Position numbers and translations under genes: made by a program | Shown: positions 1-48,592 of the stretch, piece after piece | Layout of the letters: every line of letters begins with the position of its first letter | How positions within the stretch are numbered: the first letter of the stretch is position 1 | The notes under the pieces: model-generated | The model's input: only the letters and a program-made list of their open reading frames with translations | Told to the model about the DNA's origin: nothing | The model's database searches: none | Origin: Alphaproteobacteria bacterium | GTDB taxonomy: Bacteria; Pseudomonadota; Gammaproteobacteria; Burkholderiales; Burkholderiaceae_C | Length of the DNA: 64,000 bases | Assembly (NCBI GenBank): GCA_030054175.1 | Contig: JASGCM010000001.1 | Coordinates: 124,001 to 188,000 of the forward strand | Reading direction: 5' to 3'

Positions 1-17
1 ACCAGGAGTCACCATGA
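1..17 (+). CDS. 3' end of PilM/PilN-like gene (cut by window start)
   Basis: Codons from base 3 read Q-E-S-P-stop, the last codons of the gene seen complete at 47636-48592 in the right arm. The TGA at 15-17 overlaps the ATG of the next gene at 14. The same bases carry an AGGAG ribosome-binding site for that next gene. Confidence 0.7.
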
Positions 18-862
18 GCCCACTGGCGCTTCTGGCCCGCAATGGGTGGCTCATTCCATGGGTGTGTTTGCTGGGGCTCTACGCCGCCATGGGTTGGCTG
101 GACCCCACGCATTGGCTGGGCACGGGCCTGCCCCAGTCTGAGGTCCTTGGCAGGGCCATGCCTTTGGGCTCGGCGGCCCATGCCGGAGCCAAGTCGCGAC
201 CAGTCCCCCTGGCCCCCGCGCCTTGGCCTGATGAAGCTGCTTTGCGGCGCCTATTGGCCTGGCACGGTCTCAGCCACCAAAGCCTGACCCTGGGGTCGCA
301 ACGCGCCGGACAAACCGAAGTGCGCTTGGTCTGGCGCTTTAGCGGCGCCATGGGGCCGGGGTTGGCTGCGCTCGAAGCCTTGGCCATTGACAGTCCGCAC
401 ATGGCTCCCGAAGCCCTGAACCTGCAATTCGAATCCCCGGGTCTCTGGCGTTTCGAGTGGCGCGGCGTGTGGCGGCAGGCAAAGGCGCCTGAGGTGTTGC
501 CCGAACGACCGCTACTTCAGACCCACTTGCGTGCTTTGGGTGCTTCGGCGGTTTTTGACCCAGACGTGTTGCGGCGTCAACAAGCCCGGTTGTGGGTCGC
601 AGGCGCTTCAGCGGCGTCTTTATTGACTGCCGCACGCCCCGAACATCTGCACCTGATTGCCGTCGCACACGACCCCAACCCTCAGGCATGGGTGGCTTGG
701 CAGCAGCAGGTATTGTTACTGCGCGTGGGTGATCGCGTCGGGCCCGAGGGCGCTCGGGTACAAACCATCGAACGCGCTCAAGTGCGCTTGACTGTGGCAG
801 GGCGGACGCAGTGGGTGCGACCTCGGCTTGCCCAAACTGCCATCGGGAGCGAGGCACCATGA
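14..862 (+). CDS. PilO/PilP-like type IV pilus inner-membrane protein (probable fusion)
   Basis: Seen: a 282-residue protein with one N-terminal membrane segment (about residues 12-30), a linker rich in Ala/Pro/Gly, a middle region (about 70-170) and a C-terminal module (about 205-275) with an AWV...VGDRVGPEGARVQTIE pattern. That last pattern resembles the beta domain of PilP/GspC, where it contacts the secretin. The membrane anchor plus middle domain resembles PilO. Inference: one gene combines PilO and PilP, which are separate genes in most pil operons. AGGAG lies six bases before the ATG. Its stop overlaps the pilQ start (ATGA). No strong family signature is visible, so the assignment rests on shape and on position between the PilMN-like gene and the secretin. 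Confidence 0.6.
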   Translation: MSPLALLARNGWLIPWVCLLGLYAAMGWLDPTHWLGTGLPQSEVLGRAMPLGSAAHAGAKSRPVPLAPAPWPDEAALRRLLAWHGLSHQSLTLGSQRAGQTEVRLVWRFSGAMGPGLAALEALAIDSPHMAPEALNLQFESPGLWRFEWRGVWRQAKAPEVLPERPLLQTHLRALGASAVFDPDVLRRQQARLWVAGASAASLLTAARPEHLHLIAVAHDPNPQAWVAWQQQVLLLRVGDRVGPEGARVQTIERAQVRLTVAGRTQWVRPRLAQTAIGSEAP

Positions 863-2175
863 AGCGCGTGGTGGTGATGGGGGCTTTATGGGTCACTGGG
901 TCTGCCGTTGGGGCCCAATCTGTCCCCTTTGACATCGATTTTCATGCCATCGACACCGCCAGCGCCTTGCGCGTGCTGGCCCACCAGTCGGGCATCAATT
1001 TGGTGCTCACCGAAGGCGTCAAAGGCAGCGTCAGCCTGCAATTGCACCAGACCGATGGCCTGAGTGCCATGCGAGCCTTGGCGCAGGCACGCGGCTTGGT
1101 CTTGGTGTCTCAAGACCAAGTTTGGTGGGTGGGGACTCAGGCCGAATGGCTGGTCCAGGAAAAAGGTCGTCAAGAGGTTCTGGCCTTGCAGCTGTTGCGC
1201 CAAGAACTGGTGTTGCGCAGCTACCGGCTGCACCATGGCCGCGCTTTGGACTGGCTCGATCAACTCCAAGGCCGTGCCGTGCATGCCGATACCGCATCCA
1301 GACTCAGCGGTGCCGGCGTGGCCACGGGGGGTGCGCGCGCCGGCGCCAGCAGTTCCCGCTGGCTGAGTCCACGAGGCCAAGCCATGGCCGATTCACGCAC
1401 CAACCACTTGGTGGTGCTCGACACTGCCGAGGTGCAAGAGCGCATCGCCCAGTGGGTCGCTCAACTCGACGTCCCCCAACGTCAGGTGCAAATCGAGGCC
1501 CGCATCGTCGAGGCCACCGAAGGTTTTGGTCAGTCACTCGGCGCACGCCTGCAAACGCCCGGTGACCGCTGGGCGCTGGACTGGTCGGCGGTGCCGTTGT
1601 CGGGCTTGTCCCCGGCGCGTGCGGCCCTATCGTTGCTGGGGCCAGGCCAGACTGGACGAGTTTGGGCCGAGATTTCCGCCCTCCAAGAGCGCGGACAGGG
1701 CAAGCTGGTCGCCACCCCCAGCCTGATCACCGCTGACCAGACCCGCGCCATCATTGAGCAAGGCACAGAACTGCCGTATCAAGTGGGCTCAAGCGCCGGC
1801 AACAGCCACACCATCGCCTTTCGCAAAGCCGAGTTGCGTCTGGATGTGGTGCCGCAAATCACACCCGAGGGTGAAATCCATCTGGATCTGGATTTACGAC
1901 GCGACAGCGTGGGCGAACTCACCGGCAATGGTTACGCCATCGACACCAAGCGCTTGCAAACTCAGGTGCGTGTGCCCGATGGCGGGACCCTGATCATCGG
2001 CGGCATTTACATTGACGACCACAACGACCAGCGCCACCAGATACCGGGATTGACCGAGGGTTGGCTAGGGCGTCTTTTCGGGCGCACGCAACAAAGGCGC
2101 CAGCGCCAAGAGTTACTGATCTTCATCACGCCTAAAATGCTACCCATTGGGCCAACACATGCGGGTGCACCATGA
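859..2175 (+). CDS. pilQ: Type IV pilus/competence secretin PilQ (HofQ-like, short form)
   Basis: Outer-membrane secretin forming the channel for pili or DNA uptake. The ATG at 859 is chosen because it overlaps the previous stop (ATGA) and gives a signal peptide ending near VGAQS; an upstream in-frame start at 811 would spoil this. Domains in order: signal peptide (1-20), STN/N0 domain (about 22-90), one secretin N domain (about 115-200), secretin core (about 205-435) with the signature VPDGGTLIIGGIY and a C-terminal ELLIFITPKML strand. At 438 residues it is much shorter than typical PilQ (600-700) and lacks N-terminal AMIN repeats, as in HofQ/ComE-type secretins. aroK follows closely, as in many proteobacteria. 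Confidence 0.88.
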   Translation: MKRVVVMGALWVTGSAVGAQSVPFDIDFHAIDTASALRVLAHQSGINLVLTEGVKGSVSLQLHQTDGLSAMRALAQARGLVLVSQDQVWWVGTQAEWLVQEKGRQEVLALQLLRQELVLRSYRLHHGRALDWLDQLQGRAVHADTASRLSGAGVATGGARAGASSSRWLSPRGQAMADSRTNHLVVLDTAEVQERIAQWVAQLDVPQRQVQIEARIVEATEGFGQSLGARLQTPGDRWALDWSAVPLSGLSPARAALSLLGPGQTGRVWAEISALQERGQGKLVATPSLITADQTRAIIEQGTELPYQVGSSAGNSHTIAFRKAELRLDVVPQITPEGEIHLDLDLRRDSVGELTGNGYAIDTKRLQTQVRVPDGGTLIIGGIYIDDHNDQRHQIPGLTEGWLGRLFGRTQQRRQRQELLIFITPKMLPIGPTHAGAP

Positions 2176-2227
2176 TCGGTGCATCCACAGGCCCTGTGTG
2201 GTTTCATTTGGTCGGAAAGGACATCCC

Positions 2228-2734
2228 TTGTTGGCTCTGGTTGGTTTGCCCGGAAGTGGCAAGTCCACGGTCGGGCGTCAGTTGGCGCGCCGACTCGACT
2301 TGCCCTTTATCGATGCCGATCAGGTCATCGAGTCCAAGCTCGGCTTTTCCATCCGAGAGTTCTTCGAGCGCGAGGGTGAAGACCGCTTTCGCGACCTGGA
2401 AGCCCAAACCTTGGATGAACTCACACGCCATCACCCGGGCGTACTCTCGACCGGTGGCGGCGTCGTGCTGCGGCCTCACAATCGGGAGGTCCTGCGCCAG
2501 CGCACCCGGGTCTTTTACCTGCGCGCCACGCCGGAAGAAATTTACCGTCGATTGCGCCACGACAAAGTGCGCCCGCTCTTGCAAGTGGCCGACCCTCTGG
2601 GCCGACTGCGCGAATTGCTCGCCCAACGCGACCCCTTGTACACCGAGGTGGCGCACCATATCATCGAATCGCACAAGCCCAACATCTCGGGCCTGGTCAA
2701 TCAAATTCTGCGCTGCGTGGCCCCGGCCACCTGA
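2228..2734 (+). CDS. aroK: Shikimate kinase
   Basis: Phosphorylates shikimate with ATP in the chorismate pathway. Seen: P-loop GLPGSGKST close to the N-terminus, an ADQVIE segment in the shikimate-binding region, the GGGVVLR loop and RPLL in the lid region, all typical of AroK. The start is uncertain. I prefer the TTG at 2228 because GGAAAGGA lies 7 bases upstream and the protein then begins LALVGLPGSGKS like its relatives (168 residues). An ATG at 2159 and a GTG at 2198 are in frame but lack a good ribosome-binding site and add an unconserved extension that overlaps the pilQ end. aroB starts six bases after the stop. Confidence 0.9.
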   Translation: MLALVGLPGSGKSTVGRQLARRLDLPFIDADQVIESKLGFSIREFFEREGEDRFRDLEAQTLDELTRHHPGVLSTGGGVVLRPHNREVLRQRTRVFYLRATPEEIYRRLRHDKVRPLLQVADPLGRLRELLAQRDPLYTEVAHHIIESHKPNISGLVNQILRCVAPAT

Positions 2735-2740
2735 AAGCCT

Positions 2741-3823
2741 ATGCAAACCCTCACCATCGACCTAGACGAACGCAGCTACCCCATTTTGATCGGTAAGGGG
2801 TTGCTCCAAAACCCCGAGGCGTGGCAAGGCCTGCCGCGCGCTGCGACGGCGGTGATCGTCAGCAACGAAATCGTCGCCCCCTTGTATGCAGACGATCTGC
2901 GCGCTGCCATTGCGCCGCATTACCCCCGCGTGCTCACGTTGGTCTTGCCTGACGGCGAAGCCCATAAAACGTTTCAGACCCTGCAAAAAGTTTTCGATTT
3001 GCTGCTGGGCGAGGGTTGTGATCGCAAGACCGTGCTGTTCGCTTTGGGTGGCGGCGTCATCGGCGACCTGACCGGGTTTGCCGCCGCTTGCTTCATGCGC
3101 GGCGTACCTTTCGTGCAAGTGCCCACCACGCTGTTGGCCCAAGTCGATTCCTCGGTGGGCGGCAAGACCGCCGTGAACCACCCTTTGGGCAAAAACATGA
3201 TTGGCGCCTTCTATCAACCGGTGCGTGTGGTGTGTGACCTCAGCACACTGCGCACCTTGCCTGAGCGCGAGTTGAGTGCTGGTTTGGCCGAGGTCATCAA
3301 GTACGGCCCCATTTACGACATGGCATTCCTCGATTGGATCGAGGCCCACATCGATGCGCTGCGCGCACGTGACATGCAAGCGCTGGCTCATGCCGTTCAA
3401 CGCAGTTGCCAGATCAAGGCGGACGTGGTGCGCCAAGACGAGCGCGAGTCTGGTTTGCGCGCCATCTTGAATTTTGGTCACACCTTCGGTCACGCCATCG
3501 AAGCGGGCTTGGGCTTTGGTGTCTGGTTGCACGGCGAGGCGGTCGGCTGCGGCATGCTCATGGCGGCGAGTTTGTCGCTGCGCCTGGGCCTGGTCGATGC
3601 GGCTTTCGTGACCCGTTTGCAAGCGCTGGTCGAACGCGCTGGCCTGCCGGTTCGCGGTCCCGTTTTAGGAGCCGATGCCTACATCGAACACATGCGTTTG
3701 GACAAAAAGTCCGAGGATGGTCAAATCAAATTCGTGCTCATCGATAGCCCTGGTCGGGTGGTGGTGCGTCCGGCTCCGGATGCACTGGTGGCCGAGGTCA
3801 TCGATGCTTCTTGCGGAAGCTGA
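2741..3823 (+). CDS. aroB: 3-dehydroquinate synthase
   Basis: Converts DAHP to 3-dehydroquinate, the second shikimate-pathway step, using NAD+ and a divalent metal. Seen in the 360-residue product: the NAD-binding [14 protein letters not shown] segment near residue 100, the [19 protein letters not shown] block with active-site lysine and asparagine, and the metal-ligand region with [11 protein letters not shown] and LHGEAV. Length and motif order match AroB. It is translated with aroK (6-base gap) and followed 3 bases later by dgt. Confidence 0.97.
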
Positions 3824-3826
3824 GGC

Positions 3827-4957
3827 ATGAGCCCTCTGGCCCCATACGCCAGTCATCCCGAGCACAGCCGAGGGCGGCGTCATGCCGAGCCCCAGGCGCC
3901 CACGCGCAACCCGTTTCAGCGTGATCGCGATCGCATCGTCCACTCCACCGCCTTTCGCCGCTTGGTCTACAAGACCCAGGTGTTTCTGAACCACGAGGGC
4001 GATTTGTTCCGCACACGCCTCACCCACTCGCTAGAGGTCGCGCAACTGGGACGCTCCATCGCAAGGTCCTTGGGACTGCAAGAAGACTTGGTTGAAGCCG
4101 TTGCCTTGGCTCACGATTTGGGGCACACGCCCTTCGGTCACGCCGGCCAGGACGCCCTGAACCATTGCATGACCCCGCACGGTGGCTTTGAGCACAACCT
4201 GCAAAGCCTGCGCGTGGTCGATGGGCTAGAGCACCGCTACCCCGAGTTTGACGGCCTGAACTTGTGTTTTGAGACACGCGAAGGCGTGCTCAAACACTGT
4301 TCGACCGCCAACGCCCAGCGCTTGGAGCAGCAAGAGCCCGGGGGCGTCGCGCATCGTTTTTTGCAAGGCATCCAACCCAGCCTCGAGTCGCAATTGTGTA
4401 ATCTGGCCGACAGCATTGCTTATAACGCGCACGACATCGACGACGGCGTGCGCTCGGGCTTGCTCACTCTGGATCAGGTGTCTCAAGCCCCTTTGTTCGG
4501 AGGCTATTTGCAAACCGTGCGAGCCCAGTATCCGCATCTGGCCCCGCGTCGATGGCTGTATGAAGCCATTCGGCGCATGCTCAGTGACCAGGTGTACGAC
4601 GTGGTAGCCGCCACCCAGAATGCGTTGAAACTCTCAGGCGTGTCCAGTGCCGACGAAGCCCGTCGGGTTGAGCCCTTGGTGCGTTTCACCGATGACATGC
4701 ACCGGCAGTCGGTGGGTTTGAAGCGCTTTTTATTTCAGCACCTCTACCGCCATCCTCAGGTGCAGCGCATGACCGACTTGGCCCAGCAGGTGGTGCGTGA
4801 ACTGTTCGCAGCTTACCAGGCACAACCCGAGGAGATGCGAGCCGAATTCGCCCAGCGCGAAGATCGGCCGCGGGCCATCGCAGACTACATCGCCGGCATG
4901 ACCGACCGCTTCGCGCAGAAAGAGCACGAGCGACTGACGGGACAGCGCTTGTGGTGA
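3827..4957 (+). CDS. dgt: dGTP triphosphohydrolase-like protein (HD domain)
   Basis: Hydrolyses dNTPs, classically dGTP, to deoxynucleoside and triphosphate. The 376-residue protein has the HD-domain metal motifs: RLTHSLEVAQ (first His, about residue 66), AHDLGHTPFGHAGQ (His-Asp pair) and a later SIAYNAHDIDDG with the last Asp. It corresponds to the shorter Dgt subfamily, often annotated deoxyguanosinetriphosphate triphosphohydrolase-like. Its last codons overlap the start of the MFS gene. Confidence 0.93.
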   Translation: MSPLAPYASHPEHSRGRRHAEPQAPTRNPFQRDRDRIVHSTAFRRLVYKTQVFLNHEGDLFRTRLTHSLEVAQLGRSIARSLGLQEDLVEAVALAHDLGHTPFGHAGQDALNHCMTPHGGFEHNLQSLRVVDGLEHRYPEFDGLNLCFETREGVLKHCSTANAQRLEQQEPGGVAHRFLQGIQPSLESQLCNLADSIAYNAHDIDDGVRSGLLTLDQVSQAPLFGGYLQTVRAQYPHLAPRRWLYEAIRRMLSDQVYDVVAATQNALKLSGVSSADEARRVEPLVRFTDDMHRQSVGLKRFLFQHLYRHPQVQRMTDLAQQVVRELFAAYQAQPEEMRAEFAQREDRPRAIADYIAGMTDRFAQKEHERLTGQRLW

Positions 4958-6162
4958 ATGGTCGTTCTGCCTGGCAGGCTTGGTTGATCATCGCTGCCGG
5001 CGGCGTGGCCGCCTTGCAGGTGGGCAAATTGCCCCCGGCTTTGCCCTGGTTGCAGGCGCAACTGGGCCTGAGCCTGCTTGACTCGGGCTTTTTGCTTTCA
5101 GTGGTGCAGGGCAGTGGCATGTTGCTGGGTCTGATGGTGGGGCAATGGATCGATGGGTATGGACTGCGCCGCAGCATGTGGACTGGGCTCATGCTCTTGT
5201 CGGCAGGCAGCTTCATGGGGGGCATGTCCGACCGAATATCCGAGCACACCGTGTGGGTCTTGCTGGCTTCACGGGTGGTCGAGGGGTTGGGTTTCTTGCT
5301 CACCGTCTTGCCTGGCCCCGGCCTGTTGCGGCGCCATGTCGAGTCCGATCGCCTCGCGCCCTTTTTGGGGTATTGGGGCACCTACATGCCTTTGGGCATG
5401 TCCCTCGCCTTGTTGGTCGGCCCTTTCTGGTTGCAGGCCGCACCCTGGTCGTCTTGGTGGTTTTTCTTTGCCTTTCTCAGCGCACTCATGGCGATGGCGC
5501 TCAGACGCGGCGTCGCCCCAGACCCTGAACCCGACGGAGCCCCTTTGGATCTGTCCTCGATCTTTGCTCGCCTGCGTCAGACTCTGGGGGCCAGTGGCCC
5601 GTGGCTGATCGCTGCCATGTTTTGCGTCTACTCAGCCCAATGGTTGTCGCTGGTCGGTTTTCTCCCCTCGATTTATTCCGCCGCGGGTGTGCAAGGTGCC
5701 ATGTTGGCGGTGCTGACCGCGCTGGCTGCTGCCGTTAACATGGGTGGCAACATGGTGTCGGGGCGATTGTTGCAACGGGGTTGGAGCGAGCGCAGCACCT
5801 TGCTCATCGGATATGGCGCGATGGCCTTGGGCAGTTTCTTGGCTTTTTCCGATCTGACCTTGGGCGTGCCCTGGGTGCGCTATTCGGGCATCTTGCTTTT
5901 TTCCTGTGTCGGCGGCCTGATTCCAGGCACGCTGTTTTCCCTGTCGGTGCGCTTGGCGCCAGCCCCCAATCTGGTTGCCAGCACGGTAGGTTGGATGCAG
6001 CAACTCTCGGCCACGGGCCAATTCCTGGGCCCCCCGCTGGCGGCTGCCTTGGCCATGGCGGTGGGAGGGTGGCAATTCACATGGGTTTTCACAGCCACCT
6101 GCTGCATCTTGGGGGTGGTGTTCGCCAGTCTCGTGTCACGCCACCCGCTTGTCCGACAATAG
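4951..6162 (+). CDS. Major facilitator superfamily transporter
   Basis: A 403-residue integral membrane protein with about 12 hydrophobic segments; the loop after TM2 reads GQWIDGYGLRRS, the usual MFS A-motif position. The substrate cannot be told from sequence. The start is GTG at 4951 (or 4954), inside the end of dgt, so the two are probably co-translated. A relatively hydrophilic loop around residues 190-205 separates the two six-helix halves. Confidence 0.85.
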   Translation: MVNGRSAWQAWLIIAAGGVAALQVGKLPPALPWLQAQLGLSLLDSGFLLSVVQGSGMLLGLMVGQWIDGYGLRRSMWTGLMLLSAGSFMGGMSDRISEHTVWVLLASRVVEGLGFLLTVLPGPGLLRRHVESDRLAPFLGYWGTYMPLGMSLALLVGPFWLQAAPWSSWWFFFAFLSALMAMALRRGVAPDPEPDGAPLDLSSIFARLRQTLGASGPWLIAAMFCVYSAQWLSLVGFLPSIYSAAGVQGAMLAVLTALAAAVNMGGNMVSGRLLQRGWSERSTLLIGYGAMALGSFLAFSDLTLGVPWVRYSGILLFSCVGGLIPGTLFSLSVRLAPAPNLVASTVGWMQQLSATGQFLGPPLAAALAMAVGGWQFTWVFTATCCILGVVFASLVSRHPLVRQ

Positions 6163-6166
6163 CGGC

Positions 6167-6736
6167 ATGTCCAGTCCTTTGACACCGGTCAACCCAAACC
6201 CGGCCCATGATGCGACGGTGCGCTGGCTCGAGCGCGCCGTCATTGGCCTGAACCTTTGCCCCTTTGCCAAAGCGCCGCACATCAAAGGTCGCATCCACAT
6301 AGCAGTTTGCGAGTCAACCGATGACGGCCAGTGCCTGGACGCCCTGTCCGACGAACTTCAGGCTTTGGTGGGCATGTCTGCGACCAAGCGCGAGACCACC
6401 TTGCTGGTGCTGCCCAACGCATGGTCTGATTTTCTCGACTTCAACGACCGCTTGGCCGATGCCGACCAAATCCTCGAAGACCTCGATTTGGTGGGCGTCA
6501 TCCAAATCGCCAGTTTCCATCCCCATTACCAATTCGCTGGCACTGCCCCCGACGACATCACCAACTACACCAACCGATCGCCTTACCCGGTGCTACATCT
6601 CCTGCGCGAGGACAGCATCGATCAGGCTGACCAGGCGTTTCCCCAGCCCGAGGCGATCTTTGAGGCCAACATGCGCACCCTGCGCGAATTGGGGCCCGAA
6701 GGTTGGGGAGCCTTGGGCATCCGGTCTTCTTCATGA
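6167..6736 (+). CDS. DUF1415 family protein
   Basis: A 189-residue cytosolic protein without signal peptide or membrane segment. Seen: WLERAVIGLNLCPFAKAP near the N-terminus, FHPHYQFAGT in the middle and NRSPYPVLHLLRE towards the C-terminus; this combination is typical of DUF1415, whose function is not established. ATG 6167 is preferred over an upstream TTG at 6149 that would overlap the MFS end. Its TGA overlaps the start of the methyltransferase gene (ATGA), so the two are probably translationally coupled. Confidence 0.82.
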   Translation: MSSPLTPVNPNPAHDATVRWLERAVIGLNLCPFAKAPHIKGRIHIAVCESTDDGQCLDALSDELQALVGMSATKRETTLLVLPNAWSDFLDFNDRLADADQILEDLDLVGVIQIASFHPHYQFAGTAPDDITNYTNRSPYPVLHLLREDSIDQADQAFPQPEAIFEANMRTLRELGPEGWGALGIRSSS

Positions 6737-7602
6737 AAAAAAATTCCATCGCCTCCGCGTCGGTGCTGCCACCCGAAGTGCGCCCCGGTCAGTCCGTGGA
6801 ACTCTTGCAGCACCTGCACATCCTGACCCGAGAAGGGCGACTCAACCAGGACTCCCGCCGCAAACTCAAACAGGTCTACCACCTGGTGCAGTTCATCGAA
6901 AAGCTGCTCGACACGGTATCGGACAACCCGAATGGCCCCACGCTGGCCGACCACGGTGCAGGTAAATCGTACTTGGGCTTCATCCTCTATGACCTCTACT
7001 TCAAGGCGTTGGGTTCAGGAACCATTTGGGGCATCGAGACCCGCACCGAGTTGGTCGCCAGCAGTCAGGCCCTGGCCATGCGGCTGGGTTTTCAGCGCAT
7101 GCTTTTTTTGAACCTCAGCGTGGCGCAATCGAGCGCCAGCACCGACTTGCCCGAGCGCATCGACATCGTCACCGCCTTGCACGCCTGCGACACCGCCACC
7201 GATGACGCCATTGCCTTTGGCCTGCTCAAACAAACCCGCGCCATGGTCTTGGTGCCCTGCTGTCAGGCCGAGGCTGCGGCTCTTTTGCGCCAAAACAAGG
7301 CACTATTCCTGTCCCAAACCCCCTTGGCTGAACTCTGGCGTCACCCCCTGCACACCCGTGAAATGGGCAGTCAACTCACCAACGTCATGCGCTGCCTGTA
7401 TTTGGAATCTCAAGGCTACAAAGTCACCGTGACCGAACTGGTGGGCTGGGAGCACAGCCTCAAAAACGAACTCATCCTGGCCGAATACACCGGCCAGAGC
7501 AAACGCAGCGCAGCTCAACGCCTGCTGGCCTTGCTCGACCAATTTGGCCTCCAAGACCTGATCGACACCCGCTTCCCGAAATTGGGGTCAGACCCCAATT
7601 AG
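6733..7602 (+). CDS. Class I SAM-dependent methyltransferase-like protein with a REP-encoded tail
   Basis: A 289-residue protein. Seen: an ADHGAGKSYLGF glycine-rich loop (about residues 72-83), a GIETRTELV acidic strand end and an ALHACDTATDDAI segment, a pattern of the methyltransferase family related to ribosomal-RNA or tRNA modifying enzymes. The substrate is unknown. ATG 6733 overlaps the DUF1415 stop. The last codons, K-L-G-S-D-P-N-stop, are encoded by a REP element (7580-7600), so the native C-terminus has been replaced or extended by about seven residues. Confidence 0.72.
   Translation: MKKNSIASASVLPPEVRPGQSVELLQHLHILTREGRLNQDSRRKLKQVYHLVQFIEKLLDTVSDNPNGPTLADHGAGKSYLGFILYDLYFKALGSGTIWGIETRTELVASSQALAMRLGFQRMLFLNLSVAQSSASTDLPERIDIVTALHACDTATDDAIAFGLLKQTRAMVLVPCCQAEAAALLRQNKALFLSQTPLAELWRHPLHTREMGSQLTNVMRCLYLESQGYKVTVTELVGWEHSLKNELILAEYTGQSKRSAAQRLLALLDQFGLQDLIDTRFPKLGSDPN
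7580..7600 (+). repeat. REP-like palindrome inside the 3' end of the methyltransferase gene
   Basis: Ten-base arms AATTGGGGTC and GACCCCAATT flank a single central A. Read in frame it gives L-G-S-D-P-N, and the following bases complete a TAG stop. Confidence 0.9.
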
Positions 7603-7650
7603 TAAGACCTCCAATAGAGTCAAACTCACACTGGGCCATCCCGCAGGCCC

Positions 7651-7703
7651 AATAATTGGGGTCACAATAATTGGGGTCAAATAATTGGGGTCAGACCCCA
7701 ATT
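7651..7703 (+). repeat. Tandem half-REP array ending in a full REP
   Basis: The 14-mer AATAATTGGGGTCA occurs at 7651, 7666 and 7680; only the third is followed by the second arm to form a complete palindrome (7683-7703). The array lies directly upstream of the transposase start at 7715. Confidence 0.88.
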
Positions 7704-7714
7704 TCATTTTTGCC

Positions 7715-8425
7715 ATGGCACGCCTTCCCCGTCTGACCGTTCCCGGCTACCCGCACCACGTGATCCAGCGCGGCACGAACCGCCAGCGTATCGTGGTCGA
7801 TGATCTTGATCGTCAGCGCCTGCTCGATCTGTGGCACCAGCATGCCCAGGCCTTCGGGGTGACAATCCATGCCTACGTCATCATGGACAACCACTTCCAT
7901 TTGCTGGCTACGCCCGAGACCGCGCAAAGCCTGCCTGGCATGATGCAGGCGGTCGGACGCAGCTATGTGCGTTACTTCAATTTGCGCCACGGCCGTACCG
8001 GTGCTTTGTGGGAGGGGCGCTACCGCAGCAACCTCGTTGAAAGTGAGCGCTATCTTCTGGCGTGCATGATTTACATCGATTTGAACCCCGTGCGGGCTGG
8101 CATGGTGGCCGACCCCAAGGACTACCGCTGGTCCAGTCACAGGCACCACATTGGGCTGGCCAGCGACAAATTGGTGAATCAGCACGCACTGTATTGGGTC
8201 TTAGGGGACACCCCATTTGGACGAGAAGCGGCCTATGCTGCCATGGTCGAAGCTGGACTGAGCCCCAAAGACCGGGAAGACCTGACCCAATCGGCGATGA
8301 AAGGTTGGGCGCTCGGATCAAAGCAATTTATGGTGAAAATTCAGAAAGATACGCCTAGAAGAGTCCATAAAGGCCAAGCCGGACGACCAGTCAGCAACCC
8401 CAGAAATCGATCTGTCCCCAATTAA
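7715..8425 (+). CDS. REP-associated tyrosine transposase (RAYT, IS200-like TnpA_REP)
   Basis: Single-strand DNA transposase family (Y1 HUH) thought to mobilise REP elements. The 236-residue product has the RAYT N-terminus RLTVPGYPHHVIQRGTNRQ, the HUH motif in MDNHFHLL (His60, His62), candidate catalytic tyrosines in SYVRYFN (Tyr84/Tyr87), the ALWEGRYRS block and IDLNPVRAGMV. ATG 7715 is preferred; an in-frame TTG at 7685 lies within the REP and would add GSDPNFIFA. Full REP copies flank the gene in the same orientation (7683-7703 and 8452-8472), and the stop lies in a degenerate half-REP (TGTCCCCAATT, 8413-8423). Family knowledge: RAYTs are usually single-copy and domesticated rather than classical insertion sequences. 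Confidence 0.92.
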   Translation: MARLPRLTVPGYPHHVIQRGTNRQRIVVDDLDRQRLLDLWHQHAQAFGVTIHAYVIMDNHFHLLATPETAQSLPGMMQAVGRSYVRYFNLRHGRTGALWEGRYRSNLVESERYLLACMIYIDLNPVRAGMVADPKDYRWSSHRHHIGLASDKLVNQHALYWVLGDTPFGREAAYAAMVEAGLSPKDREDLTQSAMKGWALGSKQFMVKIQKDTPRRVHKGQAGRPVSNPRNRSVPN

Positions 8426-8451
8426 TTCACTGTTGTAAAAAAACGACCATA

Positions 8452-8472
8452 AATTGGGGTCAGACCCCAATT
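8452..8472 (+). repeat. REP-like palindrome between transposase and gltB promoter
   Basis: Same orientation and arms as the copies upstream of the transposase. It ends seven bases before the putative -35 box of gltB. Confidence 0.9.
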
Positions 8473-8478
8473 ATTTTT

Positions 8479-8508
8479 TTGGCATTGCTGTTGCATTGCC
8501 TTTATGAT
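8479..8508 (+). promoter_or_regulatory. Putative sigma70 promoter of gltBD
   Basis: TTGGCA (8479-8484), 18-base spacer, TATGAT (8503-8508); each box differs from consensus by one base. The leader before the gltB ATG is about 30 bases and contains TAGGAG as ribosome-binding site. Confidence 0.5.
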
Positions 8509-40050: not shown

Positions 40051-40920
40051 CTAATTGGGGTCTGACCCCAATTTCGGGAAGCGGGTGTCGATCAGGTCTT
40101 GGAGGCCAAATTGGTCGAGCAAGGCCAGCAGGCGTTGAGCTGCGCTGCGTTTGCTCTGGCCGGTGTATTCGGCCAGGATGAGTTCGTTTTTGAGGCTGTG
40201 CTCCCAGCCCACCAGTTCGGTCACGGTGACTTTGTAGCCTTGAGATTCCAAATACAGGCAGCGCATGACGTTGGTGAGTTGACTGCCCATTTCACGGGTG
40301 TGCAGGGGGTGACGCCAGAGTTCAGCCAAGGGGGTTTGGGACAGGAATAGTGCCTTGTTTTGGCGCAAAAGAGCCGCAGCCTCGGCCTGACAGCAGGGCA
40401 CCAAGACCATGGCGCGGGTTTGTTTGAGCAGGCCAAAGGCAATGGCGTCATCGGTGGCGGTGTCGCAGGCGTGCAAGGCGGTGACGATGTCGATGCGCTC
40501 GGGCAAGTCGGTGCTGGCGCTCGATTGCGCCACGCTGAGGTTCAAAAAAAGCATGCGCTGAAAACCCAGCCGCATGGCCAGGGCCTGACTGCTGGCGACC
40601 AACTCGGTGCGGGTCTCGATGCCCCAAATGGTTCCTGAACCCAACGCCTTGAAGTAGAGGTCATAGAGGATGAAGCCCAAGTACGATTTACCTGCACCGT
40701 GGTCGGCCAGCGTGGGGCCATTCGGGTTGTCCGATACCGTGTCGAGCAGCTTTTCGATGAACTGCACCAGGTGGTAGACCTGTTTGAGTTTGCGGCGGGA
40801 GTCCTGGTTGAGTCGCCCTTCTCGGGTCAGGATGTGCAGGTGCTGCAAGAGTTCCACGGACTGACCGGGGCGCACTTCGGGTGGCAGCACCGACGCGGAG
40901 GCGATGGAATTTTTTTTCAT
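40051..40920 (-). CDS. SAM-dependent methyltransferase-like protein (mirror copy)
   Basis: Mirror of 6733-7602, identical 289 residues with the REP-encoded L-G-S-D-P-N end. Confidence 0.7.
   Translation of the reverse strand: MKKNSIASASVLPPEVRPGQSVELLQHLHILTREGRLNQDSRRKLKQVYHLVQFIEKLLDTVSDNPNGPTLADHGAGKSYLGFILYDLYFKALGSGTIWGIETRTELVASSQALAMRLGFQRMLFLNLSVAQSSASTDLPERIDIVTALHACDTATDDAIAFGLLKQTRAMVLVPCCQAEAAALLRQNKALFLSQTPLAELWRHPLHTREMGSQLTNVMRCLYLESQGYKVTVTELVGWEHSLKNELILAEYTGQSKRSAAQRLLALLDQFGLQDLIDTRFPKLGSDPN
40053..40073 (-). repeat. REP-like palindrome (mirror of 7580-7600)
   Basis: Lies inside the 3' end of the mirror methyltransferase gene and supplies its stop. Confidence 0.88.
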
Positions 40921-41486
40921 GAAGAAGACCGGATGCCCAAGGCTCCCCAACCTTCGGGCCCCAATTCGCGCAGGGTGCGCATGTTGGCCTCAAAGATCGC
41001 CTCGGGCTGGGGAAACGCCTGGTCAGCCTGATCGATGCTGTCCTCGCGCAGGAGATGTAGCACCGGGTAAGGCGATCGGTTGGTGTAGTTGGTGATGTCG
41101 TCGGGGGCAGTGCCAGCGAATTGGTAATGGGGATGGAAACTGGCGATTTGGATGACGCCCACCAAATCGAGGTCTTCGAGGATTTGGTCGGCATCGGCCA
41201 AGCGGTCGTTGAAGTCGAGAAAATCAGACCATGCGTTGGGCAGCACCAGCAAGGTGGTCTCGCGCTTGGTCGCAGACATGCCCACCAAAGCCTGAAGTTC
41301 GTCGGACAGGGCGTCCAGGCACTGGCCGTCATCGGTTGACTCGCAAACTGCTATGTGGATGCGACCTTTGATGTGCGGCGCTTTGGCAAAGGGGCAAAGG
41401 TTCAGGCCAATGACGGCGCGCTCGAGCCAGCGCACCGTCGCATCATGGGCCGGGTTTGGGTTGACCGGTGTCAAAGGACTGGACAT
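40917..41486 (-). CDS. DUF1415 family protein (mirror copy)
   Basis: Mirror of 6167-6736, identical 189 residues. Confidence 0.8.
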   Translation of the reverse strand: MSSPLTPVNPNPAHDATVRWLERAVIGLNLCPFAKAPHIKGRIHIAVCESTDDGQCLDALSDELQALVGMSATKRETTLLVLPNAWSDFLDFNDRLADADQILEDLDLVGVIQIASFHPHYQFAGTAPDDITNYTNRSPYPVLHLLREDSIDQADQAFPQPEAIFEANMRTLRELGPEGWGALGIRSSS

Positions 41487-41490
41487 GCCG

Positions 41491-42702
41491 CTATTGTCGG
41501 ACAAGCGGGTGGCGTGACACGAGACTGGCGAACACCACCCCCAAGATGCAGCAGGTGGCTGTGAAAACCCATGTGAATTGCCACCCTCCCACCGCCATGG
41601 CCAAGGCAGCCGCCAGCGGGGGGCCCAGGAATTGGCCCGTGGCCGAGAGTTGCTGCATCCAACCTACCGTGCTGGCAACCAGATTGGGGGCTGGCGCCAA
41701 GCGCACCGACAGGGAAAACAGCGTGCCTGGAATCAGGCCGCCGACACAGGAAAAAAGCAAGATGCCCGAATAGCGCACCCAGGGCACGCCCAAGGTCAGA
41801 TCGGAAAAAGCCAAGAAACTGCCCAAGGCCATCGCGCCATATCCGATGAGCAAGGTGCTGCGCTCGCTCCAACCCCGTTGCAACAATCGCCCCGACACCA
41901 TGTTGCCACCCATGTTAACGGCAGCAGCCAGCGCGGTCAGCACCGCCAACATGGCACCTTGCACACCCGCGGCGGAATAAATCGAGGGGAGAAAACCGAC
42001 CAGCGACAACCATTGGGCTGAGTAGACGCAAAACATGGCAGCGATCAGCCACGGGCCACTGGCCCCCAGAGTCTGACGCAGGCGAGCAAAGATCGAGGAC
42101 AGATCCAAAGGGGCTCCGTCGGGTTCAGGGTCTGGGGCGACGCCGCGTCTGAGCGCCATCGCCATGAGTGCGCTGAGAAAGGCAAAGAAAAACCACCAAG
42201 ACGACCAGGGTGCGGCCTGCAACCAGAAAGGGCCGACCAACAAGGCGAGGGACATGCCCAAAGGCATGTAGGTGCCCCAATACCCCAAAAAGGGCGCGAG
42301 GCGATCGGACTCGACATGGCGCCGCAACAGGCCGGGGCCAGGCAAGACGGTGAGCAAGAAACCCAACCCCTCGACCACCCGTGAAGCCAGCAAGACCCAC
42401 ACGGTGTGCTCGGATATTCGGTCGGACATGCCCCCCATGAAGCTGCCTGCCGACAAGAGCATGAGCCCAGTCCACATGCTGCGGCGCAGTCCATACCCAT
42501 CGATCCATTGCCCCACCATCAGACCCAGCAACATGCCACTGCCCTGCACCACTGAAAGCAAAAAGCCCGAGTCAAGCAGGCTCAGGCCCAGTTGCGCCTG
42601 CAACCAGGGCAAAGCCGGGGGCAATTTGCCCACCTGCAAGGCGGCCACGCCGCCGGCAGCGATGATCAACCAAGCCTGCCAGGCAGAACGACCATTCACC
42701 AC
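41491..42702 (-). CDS. MFS transporter (mirror copy)
   Basis: Mirror of 4951-6162, GTG start within the dgt 3' end. Confidence 0.83.
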   Translation of the reverse strand: MVNGRSAWQAWLIIAAGGVAALQVGKLPPALPWLQAQLGLSLLDSGFLLSVVQGSGMLLGLMVGQWIDGYGLRRSMWTGLMLLSAGSFMGGMSDRISEHTVWVLLASRVVEGLGFLLTVLPGPGLLRRHVESDRLAPFLGYWGTYMPLGMSLALLVGPFWLQAAPWSSWWFFFAFLSALMAMALRRGVAPDPEPDGAPLDLSSIFARLRQTLGASGPWLIAAMFCVYSAQWLSLVGFLPSIYSAAGVQGAMLAVLTALAAAVNMGGNMVSGRLLQRGWSERSTLLIGYGAMALGSFLAFSDLTLGVPWVRYSGILLFSCVGGLIPGTLFSLSVRLAPAPNLVASTVGWMQQLSATGQFLGPPLAAALAMAVGGWQFTWVFTATCCILGVVFASLVSRHPLVRQ

Positions 42703-43826
42703 AAGCGCTGTCCCGTCAGTCGCTCGTGCTCTTTCTGCGCGAAGCGGTCGGTCATGCCGGCGATGTAGTCTGCGATGGCCCGCGGCCGATCTTCGCGCTG
42801 GGCGAATTCGGCTCGCATCTCCTCGGGTTGTGCCTGGTAAGCTGCGAACAGTTCACGCACCACCTGCTGGGCCAAGTCGGTCATGCGCTGCACCTGAGGA
42901 TGGCGGTAGAGGTGCTGAAATAAAAAGCGCTTCAAACCCACCGACTGCCGGTGCATGTCATCGGTGAAACGCACCAAGGGCTCAACCCGACGGGCTTCGT
43001 CGGCACTGGACACGCCTGAGAGTTTCAACGCATTCTGGGTGGCGGCTACCACGTCGTACACCTGGTCACTGAGCATGCGCCGAATGGCTTCATACAGCCA
43101 TCGACGCGGGGCCAGATGCGGATACTGGGCTCGCACGGTTTGCAAATAGCCTCCGAACAAAGGGGCTTGAGACACCTGATCCAGAGTGAGCAAGCCCGAG
43201 CGCACGCCGTCGTCGATGTCGTGCGCGTTATAAGCAATGCTGTCGGCCAGATTACACAATTGCGACTCGAGGCTGGGTTGGATGCCTTGCAAAAAACGAT
43301 GCGCGACGCCCCCGGGCTCTTGCTGCTCCAAGCGCTGGGCGTTGGCGGTCGAACAGTGTTTGAGCACGCCTTCGCGTGTCTCAAAACACAAGTTCAGGCC
43401 GTCAAACTCGGGGTAGCGGTGCTCTAGCCCATCGACCACGCGCAGGCTTTGCAGGTTGTGCTCAAAGCCACCGTGCGGGGTCATGCAATGGTTCAGGGCG
43501 TCCTGGCCGGCGTGACCGAAGGGCGTGTGCCCCAAATCGTGAGCCAAGGCAACGGCTTCAACCAAGTCTTCTTGCAGTCCCAAGGACCTTGCGATGGAGC
43601 GTCCCAGTTGCGCGACCTCTAGCGAGTGGGTGAGGCGTGTGCGGAACAAATCGCCCTCGTGGTTCAGAAACACCTGGGTCTTGTAGACCAAGCGGCGAAA
43701 GGCGGTGGAGTGGACGATGCGATCGCGATCACGCTGAAACGGGTTGCGCGTGGGCGCCTGGGGCTCGGCATGACGCCGCCCTCGGCTGTGCTCGGGATGA
43801 CTGGCGTATGGGGCCAGAGGGCTCAT
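42696..43826 (-). CDS. dgt: dGTP triphosphohydrolase-like protein (mirror copy)
   Basis: Mirror of 3827-4957, identical HD-domain motifs. Confidence 0.91.
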   Translation of the reverse strand: MSPLAPYASHPEHSRGRRHAEPQAPTRNPFQRDRDRIVHSTAFRRLVYKTQVFLNHEGDLFRTRLTHSLEVAQLGRSIARSLGLQEDLVEAVALAHDLGHTPFGHAGQDALNHCMTPHGGFEHNLQSLRVVDGLEHRYPEFDGLNLCFETREGVLKHCSTANAQRLEQQEPGGVAHRFLQGIQPSLESQLCNLADSIAYNAHDIDDGVRSGLLTLDQVSQAPLFGGYLQTVRAQYPHLAPRRWLYEAIRRMLSDQVYDVVAATQNALKLSGVSSADEARRVEPLVRFTDDMHRQSVGLKRFLFQHLYRHPQVQRMTDLAQQVVRELFAAYQAQPEEMRAEFAQREDRPRAIADYIAGMTDRFAQKEHERLTGQRLW

Positions 43827-43829
43827 GCC

Positions 43830-44912
43830 TCAGCTTCCGCAAGAAGCATCGATGACCTCGGCCACCAGTGCATCCGGAGCCGGACGCACCACCACCCGAC
43901 CAGGGCTATCGATGAGCACGAATTTGATTTGACCATCCTCGGACTTTTTGTCCAAACGCATGTGTTCGATGTAGGCATCGGCTCCTAAAACGGGACCGCG
44001 AACCGGCAGGCCAGCGCGTTCGACCAGCGCTTGCAAACGGGTCACGAAAGCCGCATCGACCAGGCCCAGGCGCAGCGACAAACTCGCCGCCATGAGCATG
44101 CCGCAGCCGACCGCCTCGCCGTGCAACCAGACACCAAAGCCCAAGCCCGCTTCGATGGCGTGACCGAAGGTGTGACCAAAATTCAAGATGGCGCGCAAAC
44201 CAGACTCGCGCTCGTCTTGGCGCACCACGTCCGCCTTGATCTGGCAACTGCGTTGAACGGCATGAGCCAGCGCTTGCATGTCACGTGCGCGCAGCGCATC
44301 GATGTGGGCCTCGATCCAATCGAGGAATGCCATGTCGTAAATGGGGCCGTACTTGATGACCTCGGCCAAACCAGCACTCAACTCGCGCTCAGGCAAGGTG
44401 CGCAGTGTGCTGAGGTCACACACCACACGCACCGGTTGATAGAAGGCGCCAATCATGTTTTTGCCCAAAGGGTGGTTCACGGCGGTCTTGCCGCCCACCG
44501 AGGAATCGACTTGGGCCAACAGCGTGGTGGGCACTTGCACGAAAGGTACGCCGCGCATGAAGCAAGCGGCGGCAAACCCGGTCAGGTCGCCGATGACGCC
44601 GCCACCCAAAGCGAACAGCACGGTCTTGCGATCACAACCCTCGCCCAGCAGCAAATCGAAAACTTTTTGCAGGGTCTGAAACGTTTTATGGGCTTCGCCG
44701 TCAGGCAAGACCAACGTGAGCACGCGGGGGTAATGCGGCGCAATGGCAGCGCGCAGATCGTCTGCATACAAGGGGGCGACGATTTCGTTGCTGACGATCA
44801 CCGCCGTCGCAGCGCGCGGCAGGCCTTGCCACGCCTCGGGGTTTTGGAGCAACCCCTTACCGATCAAAATGGGGTAGCTGCGTTCGTCTAGGTCGATGGT
44901 GAGGGTTTGCAT
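43830..44912 (-). CDS. aroB: 3-dehydroquinate synthase (mirror copy)
   Basis: Mirror of 2741-3823, identical 360 residues. Confidence 0.95.
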
Positions 44913-44918
44913 AGGCTT

Positions 44919-45425
44919 TCAGGTGGCCGGGGCCACGCAGCGCAGAATTTGATTGACCAGGCCCGAGATGTTGGGCTTGTGCGATTCGATGATATGGTGC
45001 GCCACCTCGGTGTACAAGGGGTCGCGTTGGGCGAGCAATTCGCGCAGTCGGCCCAGAGGGTCGGCCACTTGCAAGAGCGGGCGCACTTTGTCGTGGCGCA
45101 ATCGACGGTAAATTTCTTCCGGCGTGGCGCGCAGGTAAAAGACCCGGGTGCGCTGGCGCAGGACCTCCCGATTGTGAGGCCGCAGCACGACGCCGCCACC
45201 GGTCGAGAGTACGCCCGGGTGATGGCGTGTGAGTTCATCCAAGGTTTGGGCTTCCAGGTCGCGAAAGCGGTCTTCACCCTCGCGCTCGAAGAACTCTCGG
45301 ATGGAAAAGCCGAGCTTGGACTCGATGACCTGATCGGCATCGATAAAGGGCAAGTCGAGTCGGCGCGCCAACTGACGCCCGACCGTGGACTTGCCACTTC
45401 CGGGCAAACCAACCAGAGCCAACAA
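44919..45425 (-). CDS. aroK: Shikimate kinase (mirror copy)
   Basis: Mirror of 2228-2734 using the same TTG start; in-frame alternatives are at 45455 (GTG) and 45494 (ATG). Confidence 0.88.
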   Translation of the reverse strand: MLALVGLPGSGKSTVGRQLARRLDLPFIDADQVIESKLGFSIREFFEREGEDRFRDLEAQTLDELTRHHPGVLSTGGGVVLRPHNREVLRQRTRVFYLRATPEEIYRRLRHDKVRPLLQVADPLGRLRELLAQRDPLYTEVAHHIIESHKPNISGLVNQILRCVAPAT

Positions 45426-45477
45426 GGGATGTCCTTTCCGACCAAATGAAACCACACAGGGCCTGTGGATGCACCGA

Positions 45478-46794
45478 TCATGGTGCACCCGCATGTGTTG
45501 GCCCAATGGGTAGCATTTTAGGCGTGATGAAGATCAGTAACTCTTGGCGCTGGCGCCTTTGTTGCGTGCGCCCGAAAAGACGCCCTAGCCAACCCTCGGT
45601 CAATCCCGGTATCTGGTGGCGCTGGTCGTTGTGGTCGTCAATGTAAATGCCGCCGATGATCAGGGTCCCGCCATCGGGCACACGCACCTGAGTTTGCAAG
45701 CGCTTGGTGTCGATGGCGTAACCATTGCCGGTGAGTTCGCCCACGCTGTCGCGTCGTAAATCCAGATCCAGATGGATTTCACCCTCGGGTGTGATTTGCG
45801 GCACCACATCCAGACGCAACTCGGCTTTGCGAAAGGCGATGGTGTGGCTGTTGCCGGCGCTTGAGCCCACTTGATACGGCAGTTCTGTGCCTTGCTCAAT
45901 GATGGCGCGGGTCTGGTCAGCGGTGATCAGGCTGGGGGTGGCGACCAGCTTGCCCTGTCCGCGCTCTTGGAGGGCGGAAATCTCGGCCCAAACTCGTCCA
46001 GTCTGGCCTGGCCCCAGCAACGATAGGGCCGCACGCGCCGGGGACAAGCCCGACAACGGCACCGCCGACCAGTCCAGCGCCCAGCGGTCACCGGGCGTTT
46101 GCAGGCGTGCGCCGAGTGACTGACCAAAACCTTCGGTGGCCTCGACGATGCGGGCCTCGATTTGCACCTGACGTTGGGGGACGTCGAGTTGAGCGACCCA
46201 CTGGGCGATGCGCTCTTGCACCTCGGCAGTGTCGAGCACCACCAAGTGGTTGGTGCGTGAATCGGCCATGGCTTGGCCTCGTGGACTCAGCCAGCGGGAA
46301 CTGCTGGCGCCGGCGCGCGCACCCCCCGTGGCCACGCCGGCACCGCTGAGTCTGGATGCGGTATCGGCATGCACGGCACGGCCTTGGAGTTGATCGAGCC
46401 AGTCCAAAGCGCGGCCATGGTGCAGCCGGTAGCTGCGCAACACCAGTTCTTGGCGCAACAGCTGCAAGGCCAGAACCTCTTGACGACCTTTTTCCTGGAC
46501 CAGCCATTCGGCCTGAGTCCCCACCCACCAAACTTGGTCTTGAGACACCAAGACCAAGCCGCGTGCCTGCGCCAAGGCTCGCATGGCACTCAGGCCATCG
46601 GTCTGGTGCAATTGCAGGCTGACGCTGCCTTTGACGCCTTCGGTGAGCACCAAATTGATGCCCGACTGGTGGGCCAGCACGCGCAAGGCGCTGGCGGTGT
46701 CGATGGCATGAAAATCGATGTCAAAGGGGACAGATTGGGCCCCAACGGCAGACCCAGTGACCCATAAAGCCCCCATCACCACCACGCGCTTCAT
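45478..46794 (-). CDS. pilQ: Short PilQ secretin (mirror copy)
   Basis: Mirror of 859-2175. In this arm its upstream operon partners are complete, so this copy shows the native operon: PilMN-like, PilOP-like, PilQ, AroK, AroB. Confidence 0.86.
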   Translation of the reverse strand: MKRVVVMGALWVTGSAVGAQSVPFDIDFHAIDTASALRVLAHQSGINLVLTEGVKGSVSLQLHQTDGLSAMRALAQARGLVLVSQDQVWWVGTQAEWLVQEKGRQEVLALQLLRQELVLRSYRLHHGRALDWLDQLQGRAVHADTASRLSGAGVATGGARAGASSSRWLSPRGQAMADSRTNHLVVLDTAEVQERIAQWVAQLDVPQRQVQIEARIVEATEGFGQSLGARLQTPGDRWALDWSAVPLSGLSPARAALSLLGPGQTGRVWAEISALQERGQGKLVATPSLITADQTRAIIEQGTELPYQVGSSAGNSHTIAFRKAELRLDVVPQITPEGEIHLDLDLRRDSVGELTGNGYAIDTKRLQTQVRVPDGGTLIIGGIYIDDHNDQRHQIPGLTEGWLGRLFGRTQQRRQRQELLIFITPKMLPIGPTHAGAP

Positions 46795-47639
46795 GGTGCC
46801 TCGCTCCCGATGGCAGTTTGGGCAAGCCGAGGTCGCACCCACTGCGTCCGCCCTGCCACAGTCAAGCGCACTTGAGCGCGTTCGATGGTTTGTACCCGAG
46901 CGCCCTCGGGCCCGACGCGATCACCCACGCGCAGTAACAATACCTGCTGCTGCCAAGCCACCCATGCCTGAGGGTTGGGGTCGTGTGCGACGGCAATCAG
47001 GTGCAGATGTTCGGGGCGTGCGGCAGTCAATAAAGACGCCGCTGAAGCGCCTGCGACCCACAACCGGGCTTGTTGACGCCGCAACACGTCTGGGTCAAAA
47101 ACCGCCGAAGCACCCAAAGCACGCAAGTGGGTCTGAAGTAGCGGTCGTTCGGGCAACACCTCAGGCGCCTTTGCCTGCCGCCACACGCCGCGCCACTCGA
47201 AACGCCAGAGACCCGGGGATTCGAATTGCAGGTTCAGGGCTTCGGGAGCCATGTGCGGACTGTCAATGGCCAAGGCTTCGAGCGCAGCCAACCCCGGCCC
47301 CATGGCGCCGCTAAAGCGCCAGACCAAGCGCACTTCGGTTTGTCCGGCGCGTTGCGACCCCAGGGTCAGGCTTTGGTGGCTGAGACCGTGCCAGGCCAAT
47401 AGGCGCCGCAAAGCAGCTTCATCAGGCCAAGGCGCGGGGGCCAGGGGGACTGGTCGCGACTTGGCTCCGGCATGGGCCGCCGAGCCCAAAGGCATGGCCC
47501 TGCCAAGGACCTCAGACTGGGGCAGGCCCGTGCCCAGCCAATGCGTGGGGTCCAGCCAACCCATGGCGGCGTAGAGCCCCAGCAAACACACCCATGGAAT
47601 GAGCCACCCATTGCGGGCCAGAAGCGCCAGTGGGCTCAT
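46791..47639 (-). CDS. PilO/PilP-like protein (mirror copy)
   Basis: Mirror of 14-862. A longer in-frame extension to 47783 exists but runs antiphase through the upstream gene. The ATG at 47639 has an AGGAG site and overlaps the upstream stop, so the 282-residue form is preferred. Confidence 0.58.
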   Translation of the reverse strand: MSPLALLARNGWLIPWVCLLGLYAAMGWLDPTHWLGTGLPQSEVLGRAMPLGSAAHAGAKSRPVPLAPAPWPDEAALRRLLAWHGLSHQSLTLGSQRAGQTEVRLVWRFSGAMGPGLAALEALAIDSPHMAPEALNLQFESPGLWRFEWRGVWRQAKAPEVLPERPLLQTHLRALGASAVFDPDVLRRQQARLWVAGASAASLLTAARPEHLHLIAVAHDPNPQAWVAWQQQVLLLRVGDRVGPEGARVQTIERAQVRLTVAGRTQWVRPRLAQTAIGSEAP

Positions 47640-48592
47640 GGTGACTCCTGGTTGGTGCCAGTCAGGCTCCAACGGGCACGAAAACGCCAAGCCGGCCAGC
47701 CCCATTCGGGCTCGGGTGGCCACACCCCGGGAGCAGACTCCAACAGTTGCGAGGTCCCACCAAACGAGGCCCATTGCCACCATGGCTGGACGTCGGACTC
47801 GTGGCTGGCCACCCCTTGCACTGTCCAGGCACCATCGGCATAGCGCAGGGCTTGCCAGAACTGCGGCGCGGCCATGGTGTCGGTCTGCCCCAAGACCTGG
47901 GCCAAAGACTGCAGCGGCCGCAGCGATTCAGATTGCCACATGGCCCACTGCCGGGTGCGTTGCACCTGCTCGACCTGCACGGCCCGCTCGCGCTCGCGCA
48001 GCAGACGTTGCTGTTCGGCCTGGCGGTCTTGCTCGGCTTGCGCCGAGGCCAGCGCACGCTGCTCTTGTATCCAAGGCCTGATGCCCCACTGCAAGGCGCT
48101 GTGCACACAGACGCAAACCAGCGCCGATACGCATGTGAGGGCCACAGGGCCAGGCCAGCGCAACGACCCGGGCGCGGAAACCTCTGCATTGGCCCATGCG
48201 CGCTGCGCTTGCGGCCAGATTTCGGTCAAATCTTGGACCGCCTCCATGGCTGTGGCCCCTGCCCAGGTCAAGCCTTCTTCGCGCGCCAGGGCTCGCCAAG
48301 GCGGCAGCCGACGTCTGCGACCAGGCCACCAACTCAAGTTCTGCCCCTTGGGGGCTGGAGCCCAGCACAGGCACAAGGGGGGTGGCGTGCCCCAATGCTC
48401 ACGCAAAGCCAGTTGCAGGGCTGGCGACCATAGATCGGTAGGGAATGCGACGGGTGGAAGCGAGTCAGGCCAGGCTTGCTCGGTCAGCGCCATGTCTGTA
48501 CCACGCCAGCCCAAGGCCCAACCCGGGGCGGCGCACACCAGGCACAACACAGGTGCGATGGGTGTTTCTTGCGGGACCAAATCGTGCGTCAT
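47636..48592 (-). CDS. PilM/PilN-like (GspL-like) type IV pilus assembly protein
   Basis: First gene of the pil operon, divergent from mrcA. Seen in 318 residues (ATG 48592; a TTG at 48604 is also in frame): a cytoplasmic N-terminal region of about 145 residues rich in Trp/Pro, one membrane segment (about 148-170, PVALTCVSALVCVCVHSAL), a charged coiled coil (about 178-215, AQAEQDRQAEQQRLLRERER) and a C-terminal periplasmic domain. This architecture is that of GspL, or of PilM joined to PilN. No clear actin-like ATP-binding motif is visible in the N-terminal part, so a degenerate PilM is only a possibility. The stop overlaps the next gene (ATGA). The 123-base gap to mrcA must hold both divergent promoters, but I see no convincing boxes. 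Confidence 0.5.
   Translation of the reverse strand: MTHDLVPQETPIAPVLCLVCAAPGWALGWRGTDMALTEQAWPDSLPPVAFPTDLWSPALQLALREHWGTPPPLCLCWAPAPKGQNLSWWPGRRRRLPPWRALAREEGLTWAGATAMEAVQDLTEIWPQAQRAWANAEVSAPGSLRWPGPVALTCVSALVCVCVHSALQWGIRPWIQEQRALASAQAEQDRQAEQQRLLRERERAVQVEQVQRTRQWAMWQSESLRPLQSLAQVLGQTDTMAAPQFWQALRYADGAWTVQGVASHESDVQPWWQWASFGGTSQLLESAPGVWPPEPEWGWPAWRFRARWSLTGTNQESP

Follow-up and report, generated by a model that had tools for sequence, protein, structure and literature searches.

Palindromic k-mers are known to complicate the de Bruijn graph, as set out in the accessible part of PMC3656733, and the contig described here (C34) is alike in that its turn coincides exactly with a palindrome exceeding k in length. 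That source, as far as it is accessible, states the principle only, whereas here a 148-kb fold-back contig sits in a genome. Metagenome contigs in which assemblers repeat identical sequence are described in the available portions of PMC7111523 and PMC8116208; those portions make no mention of reverse-complement copies, whereas in C34 half of the contig is an inverted copy. Long-read foldbacks, as presented in the accessible part of PMC12870357, likewise join a sequence to its reverse complement, but they arise in the read, whereas the fold-back of C34 would have arisen in the assembly graph. The closest counterpart in living cells is the palindrome-induced inverted chromosome duplication of Escherichia coli lacking SbcCD and RecA, for which the available text of PMC3315005 reports a 246-bp interrupted palindrome. 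The likeness is an inverted duplication centred on a palindrome; the difference is that the E. coli event takes place in vivo in repair-deficient cells, while C34 bears no sign of such an event beyond its form. In the literature that we searched, we found no account of an entire contig of this size folding back at a REP palindrome, the REP core GGGGTCAGACCCC gave no match as text, and the accessible part of PMC7674155 mentions palindromes only for CRISPR.

Extent and symmetry of the palindrome

The window, by which we mean the whole stretch of 64,000 nucleotides that was analysed, is C34:107653-171652, minus strand, of an assembly (G000) comprising 3,101,799 bases in 39 contigs, with a listed completeness of 99.59% and a listed contamination of 4.91%. 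Positions 1-47652 of the window form a perfect spacer-less palindrome with the symmetry x to 47653-x and 0 mismatches over 47,652 positions; the axis lies between 23826 and 23827 and the in-window arms are 23,826 bp each. An earlier note on this DNA had described a perfect 47.65-kb palindrome without spacer, with this same symmetry and no divergence. Its perfection and symmetry hold at every one of the 47,652 positions, but its size does not: the palindrome is the whole contig. C34 is 295,652 bp long, that is 2 x 147,826, and from end to end it is identical to its reverse complement (0 mismatches in 295,652), without spacer and without unique flank, each arm being 147,826 bp. We checked whether the palindrome really ends at window position 47652, and it does not. 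This position is the mirror of the first base of the window; it marks no boundary, whether biological or of the assembly, and is set by the window edge. That the palindrome covers three quarters of the window, as stated earlier, is an effect of the cropping, since positions 47653-64000 are palindromic as well and merely have their mate outside the window (Table 1).

A genuine inverted duplication would be recognized by arms with different unique flanks or by some divergence between them. C34 has neither flank nor divergence, an absence that is also expected of a very recent duplication reaching beyond a repeat-bounded contig. When the first and last 1,000 bases of the 39 contigs were compared, mirrored tips were found in C34 only; in the interiors of the other 38 contigs, palindromes were read within the stretches taken around REP sites.

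The part of arm A shown as positions 1-23826 of the window carries chromosomal genes that end with an mlaC-like gene, an ABC transporter pair, a bolA-like gene, murA, hisG and hisD, names that were assigned from Pfam family and gene order. The murA gene belongs to the EPSP synthase family, and its position and length point to murA rather than aroA.

Table 1. Features of the window and the comparisons by which each was located.
Feature	Window position	Strand	Located by	Remarks
Part of palindrome arm A	1..23826	+	symmetry and contig position	C34:147827-171652
Exact mirror of 1-23826	23827..47652	-	0 mismatches in 47,652	almost certainly an artefactual second copy
Mirror arm, continued	47653..64000	-	contig symmetry	mate outside window at C34:171653-188000
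Y1_Tnp transposase gene, RAYT-like, REP-associated	7685..8425	+	family match	mirror copy, almost certainly false, at 39228-39968 (-)
murA (EPSP synthase family)	20579..21844	+	Pfam family	
hisG	21841..22485	+	Pfam family	
hisD	22496..23824	+	Pfam family	mirror copy, almost certainly false, at 23829-25157 (-)
Palindromic REP doublet at axis, two inverted GGGGTCAGACCCC cores	23798..23855	.	arm end versus C19 start	implied length 58 bp
55 bases identical to first 55 of C19	23801..23855	+	exact comparison	match stops at base 56

A REP doublet at the axis

The REP core is dispersed across G000, and the axis of C34 falls between two inverted copies of it. The last codons and the stop codon of hisD lie inside this REP doublet and give the protein the tail QKLGSDPN. 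Its length of 58 bp follows from the last 29 bases of the arm and the first 55 bases of a second contig, C19, which were compared without joining them, and by this comparison the native hisD/hisC junction would contain a perfect 58-bp palindrome. The REP palindrome (on C19, positions 1-55) gives last codons and stop to both convergent genes, and the HisD and HisC tails both read QKLGSDPN. It may also serve as a two-way terminator.

Seven places in G000 have two facing exact REP cores, and a self-complementary centre occurs at the axis only, the other six of six being asymmetric; this count takes exact-core doublets only, with mirror copies counted once and the C19 copy merged with the axis. 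Pairs with altered cores were inspected within the stretches around sampled REP sites. In 28 stretches around other REP sites (20 further REP places, six doublets other than that of the axis, and two contig ends, with two of the stretches overlapping and one lying on C34) even perfect palindromes reached at most 16 bp. A near-palindrome at the C32:46991 doublet measures 84 bp, with arms of 41 and a centre of 2 bases, and was assembled through with no fold, C32:46991-47032 and its surroundings lying undisturbed within a contig. Two 59-bp elements with a single odd central base, both on the same arm (C34:12232-12290 and 62443-62501), were likewise assembled through. With an asymmetric centre, a 55-mer can already distinguish the two strands. 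A search for REP doublets of the opposite arrangement, taking exact cores separated by 5-30 bases, found none.

Contig-end overlaps and a probable k of 55

An exact 55-base relation to another end was found at 33 of the 78 contig ends, with the two tips of C34 counted apart. End pairs with a common prefix of at least 40 bases numbered 34, and their prefixes were 55 bases long in 16 pairs, 54 in 10, 51 in three and 48 in four. The only pair longer than 55 is C34 with itself, which agrees over all 1,000 compared bases. Another 34 of the 78 ends have no shared end stretch of at least 40 bases, and the mark of k=55 is not present at every end. We infer the kind of assembler and its setting, a de Bruijn assembly with k=55, from the contig-end overlaps; 55 is the last k of default metaSPAdes. 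The start of C19 equals the last 55 of the 58 palindrome bases, as k=55 predicts.

Two further contig ends or pairs of ends drew our attention. The ends of C38 share an inward 55-mer, both leaving the same repeat in opposite orientation, and an inverted repeat possibly bounds this 92.8-kb segment. The start of C12 and the end of C39 both have REP cores and a 48-base dovetail overlap, which suggests that C39 may adjoin C12, with another REP doublet at the junction.

The contig ends also bear on whether a long-read hairpin or fold-back read, or a whole-genome amplification chimera, was carried into the contig. Fold-back artefacts in long reads are documented, in the part of PMC12870357 that is accessible, and C34 does have the form of a sequence followed by its reverse, but contig ends overlapping by 55 bases are what a short-read graph typically yields, and the position of the axis coincides exactly with a palindrome of which C19 shares 55 bases. 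The length of the arm is a further difficulty. Usual reads are far exceeded by 147.8 kb, and we regard such an origin as extremely unlikely.

C19 as the likely native neighbour of hisD

The identity of 55 bases between C19 and the axis is likely to be the k-mer overlap with the true neighbour of the arm. On C19 the hisC gene of G000 lies at positions 74-1111 on the minus strand, and beyond it are hisB and a glutamine amidotransferase gene that, from its position, is probably hisH. The operon order is murA-hisG-hisD-hisC-hisB, which predicts hisC right after hisD. We compared this with the best 80 of the 591 matches listed, among which the genome of the window itself may be missing. In these 80 named loci the order from hisG to hisB was seen in 64, and hisC adjoins hisD in 71, of which 68 are canonical and three inverted; the nine loci that gave no hisC match were kept in the denominator of 80. 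A perfect palindrome of at least 40 bp was present in 0 of these 80 best-matching loci.

The relative G011 has both sides of the axis on a single contig of 572,966 bp. There the first 20 kb of C19 have matches at 410,020-429,892 and window positions 7715-23824 at 430,003-446,411, in the same order and with some intervals unmatched. These matches represent 58 mechanical ORFs, 37 from C19 and 21 from the arm, counted as ATG ORFs of at least 120 amino acids matching over more than half their length, overlapping frames included. For window positions 1-7714, no ORF was matched over half its length within the stretch of G011 analysed, which ends at 450,000, and the collinearity with G011 is limited to window positions 7715-23824. 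The native neighbour of hisD, which the earlier note had sought, is very probably C19, to judge from the 55-base overlap, the hisC and hisB content of C19 and the collinearity with G011.

The orientation of hisC is inverted here in comparison with most relatives. An inverted hisC of the same type is found in L151, L213 and L229 (three of the best 80 of the 591 matches listed) and in G019, and contig 16 of G007 carries a hisD 3' end together with an inverted hisC of the G000 type. Since the junction of hisD with inverted hisC also occurs in other assemblies, a second assembly error at this point is unlikely.

Several observations concern the his genes themselves. The hisC region, C19:74-1233 (L024, L262), adjoins window position 23826 and is inverted between hisD and hisB. 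The hisC gene of G000 is only about 27-32% identical to that of most relatives of the same genus, and no other HisC above the cut-off was found in G000 besides the C19 gene. Judged from these comparisons, a different type of hisC has apparently replaced the usual one in place. A second, distant homologue of hisD is located at C29:27110-28330 and is 36% identical; similar genes are found in G010 (35%) and G028 (38%).

The outer tips and the missing EF-Tu gene

C34 starts, and in mirror image ends, with 3'-terminal codons followed by a tRNA-Trp gene; read by eye, these codons appear to be the 3' end of tuf. The first 55 bases of C25 are those of the C34 tip, and a gene for ribosomal protein S10 follows. 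No EF-Tu gene above the family cut-off was found in the G000 assembly despite its listed completeness of 99.59%, and a two-copy tuf repeat that dropped out of the assembly or bin between its neighbours seems to explain this absence. Taken by itself the arm is an ordinary contig, with a repeat (tuf) as its limit at one end and a palindrome (the REP doublet) at the other.

An N15-like linear replicon that ends in hairpin telomeres, or its head-to-head dimer, would resemble C34 in one respect, as such dimers are inverted and spacer-less. The arm, however, carries ordinary chromosomal genes, whose order agrees with that of a relative to either side of the axis, its outer tips are the tuf boundary, and the axis is formed by a member of a dispersed REP family with a chromosomal neighbour in C19 and not by a replicon-specific telomere. 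The probability of such a replicon is, in our judgment, vanishingly small.

C34 as a very probable fold-back of the assembly

We conclude that C34 is almost certainly a fold-back assembly artefact, present in the file and not in the cell. The real chromosome would run from arm A (tuf, tRNA-Trp and onward to murA-hisG-hisD) through the 58-bp REP palindrome into C19 (inverted hisC, hisB, hisH and onward). In a graph with k=55, a perfect palindrome of 58 bp would be its own reverse complement and be represented as a single self-complementary element, entered by A and by the reverse of C19 and left by C19 and by the reverse of A. The assembler would have followed the path from A through the palindrome into the reverse of A, leaving C19 as a separate contig whose start is the final 55 palindrome bases. 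The other end of A would stop at the tuf repeat, so that both tips of C34 would be the same tuf boundary. The path through the graph is our reconstruction; what we observed directly is the symmetry, the overlap of 55 bases, the gene neighbours found in relatives and the tips.

An artefact of this kind should give a contig that is its own reverse complement without unique flanks, and in C34 we found 0 mismatches in 295,652. Its axis should lie in a perfect palindrome longer than k, and the implied length is 58 bp against the inferred k of 55. The true neighbour should start with the last k bases of this palindrome, as C19 does with an exact 55, and near-palindromes with an asymmetric centre should be left unfolded, as are the two 59-bp elements and the 84-bp element. 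The earlier note had preferred a fold-back assembly join, and this choice is supported by the k=55 contig ends and the 58-bp palindrome at hisD/hisC. Without the second arm the assembly amounts to 2,953,973 bp, of which the arm is 5.0%, as compared with the listed contamination of 4.91%. We count this agreement as weak support for an artefact because genomes of the same genus are also listed at 4-5% contamination, two of 18 of them at 5% (rounded).

Alternatively, the REP palindrome could have nucleated a genuine inverted duplication in vivo, in which a nearby break, hairpin formation and replication produce a head-to-head copy of the arm. A perfect 58-bp palindrome does sit exactly at the axis, and according to the accessible text of PMC3315005 such reactions yield inverted chromosome duplications centred on a palindrome. 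Against this, the duplication would have to extend for 147.8 kb from hisD to at least the tuf repeat without a branch point or a mismatch, a contig with the native junction (C19) also exists, and, at 58 bp, the element falls short of the interrupted palindrome of 246 bp studied in E. coli (PMC3315005, same portion). An assembly error explains every observed detail, and no such event is needed. It is very unlikely, in our estimation, that in some of the sequenced cells the REP palindrome nucleated a head-to-head duplication of the arm to or beyond tuf, alongside the native junction; in that case the assembler would have traced genuine junction reads.

A RAYT-like transposase gene on the arm

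REP families travel with transposases of the Y1_Tnp type. The Y1_Tnp gene of the window, which is RAYT-like, is the only match of this family in G000 apart from its mirror copy, and REP cores lie around it at window positions 7584, 7687 and 8456. A REP core also supplies the terminal KLGSDPN of the gene preceding the transposase (region 6703-8468 of the window), and, if a TTG start is used, the ORF of the transposase itself opens with REP-encoded GSDPN. In G011 a stretch of 62% identity is found at the same place, beside the large gene that lies at window positions 8543-13228. Since this stretch occupies the same place in the relative, the transposase may have long resided at this locus without moving.

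Implications for gene content

Public assemblies could be screened for the same condition by searching for a contig that is its own reverse complement, has an axis palindrome longer than k and has an axis k-mer that starts another contig. In the present assembly the false duplicate of about 147.8 kb would inflate the copy numbers of murA, hisG, hisD, the transposase and all else on the arm. The earlier note had warned against gene-copy conclusions from the palindrome, rightly so, and with the full-length symmetry of C34 this warning extends to the whole 147.8-kb arm: conclusions on gene copies are unsafe when drawn from any part of C34. The false duplicate would also hide the true hisD/hisC junction of this organism.
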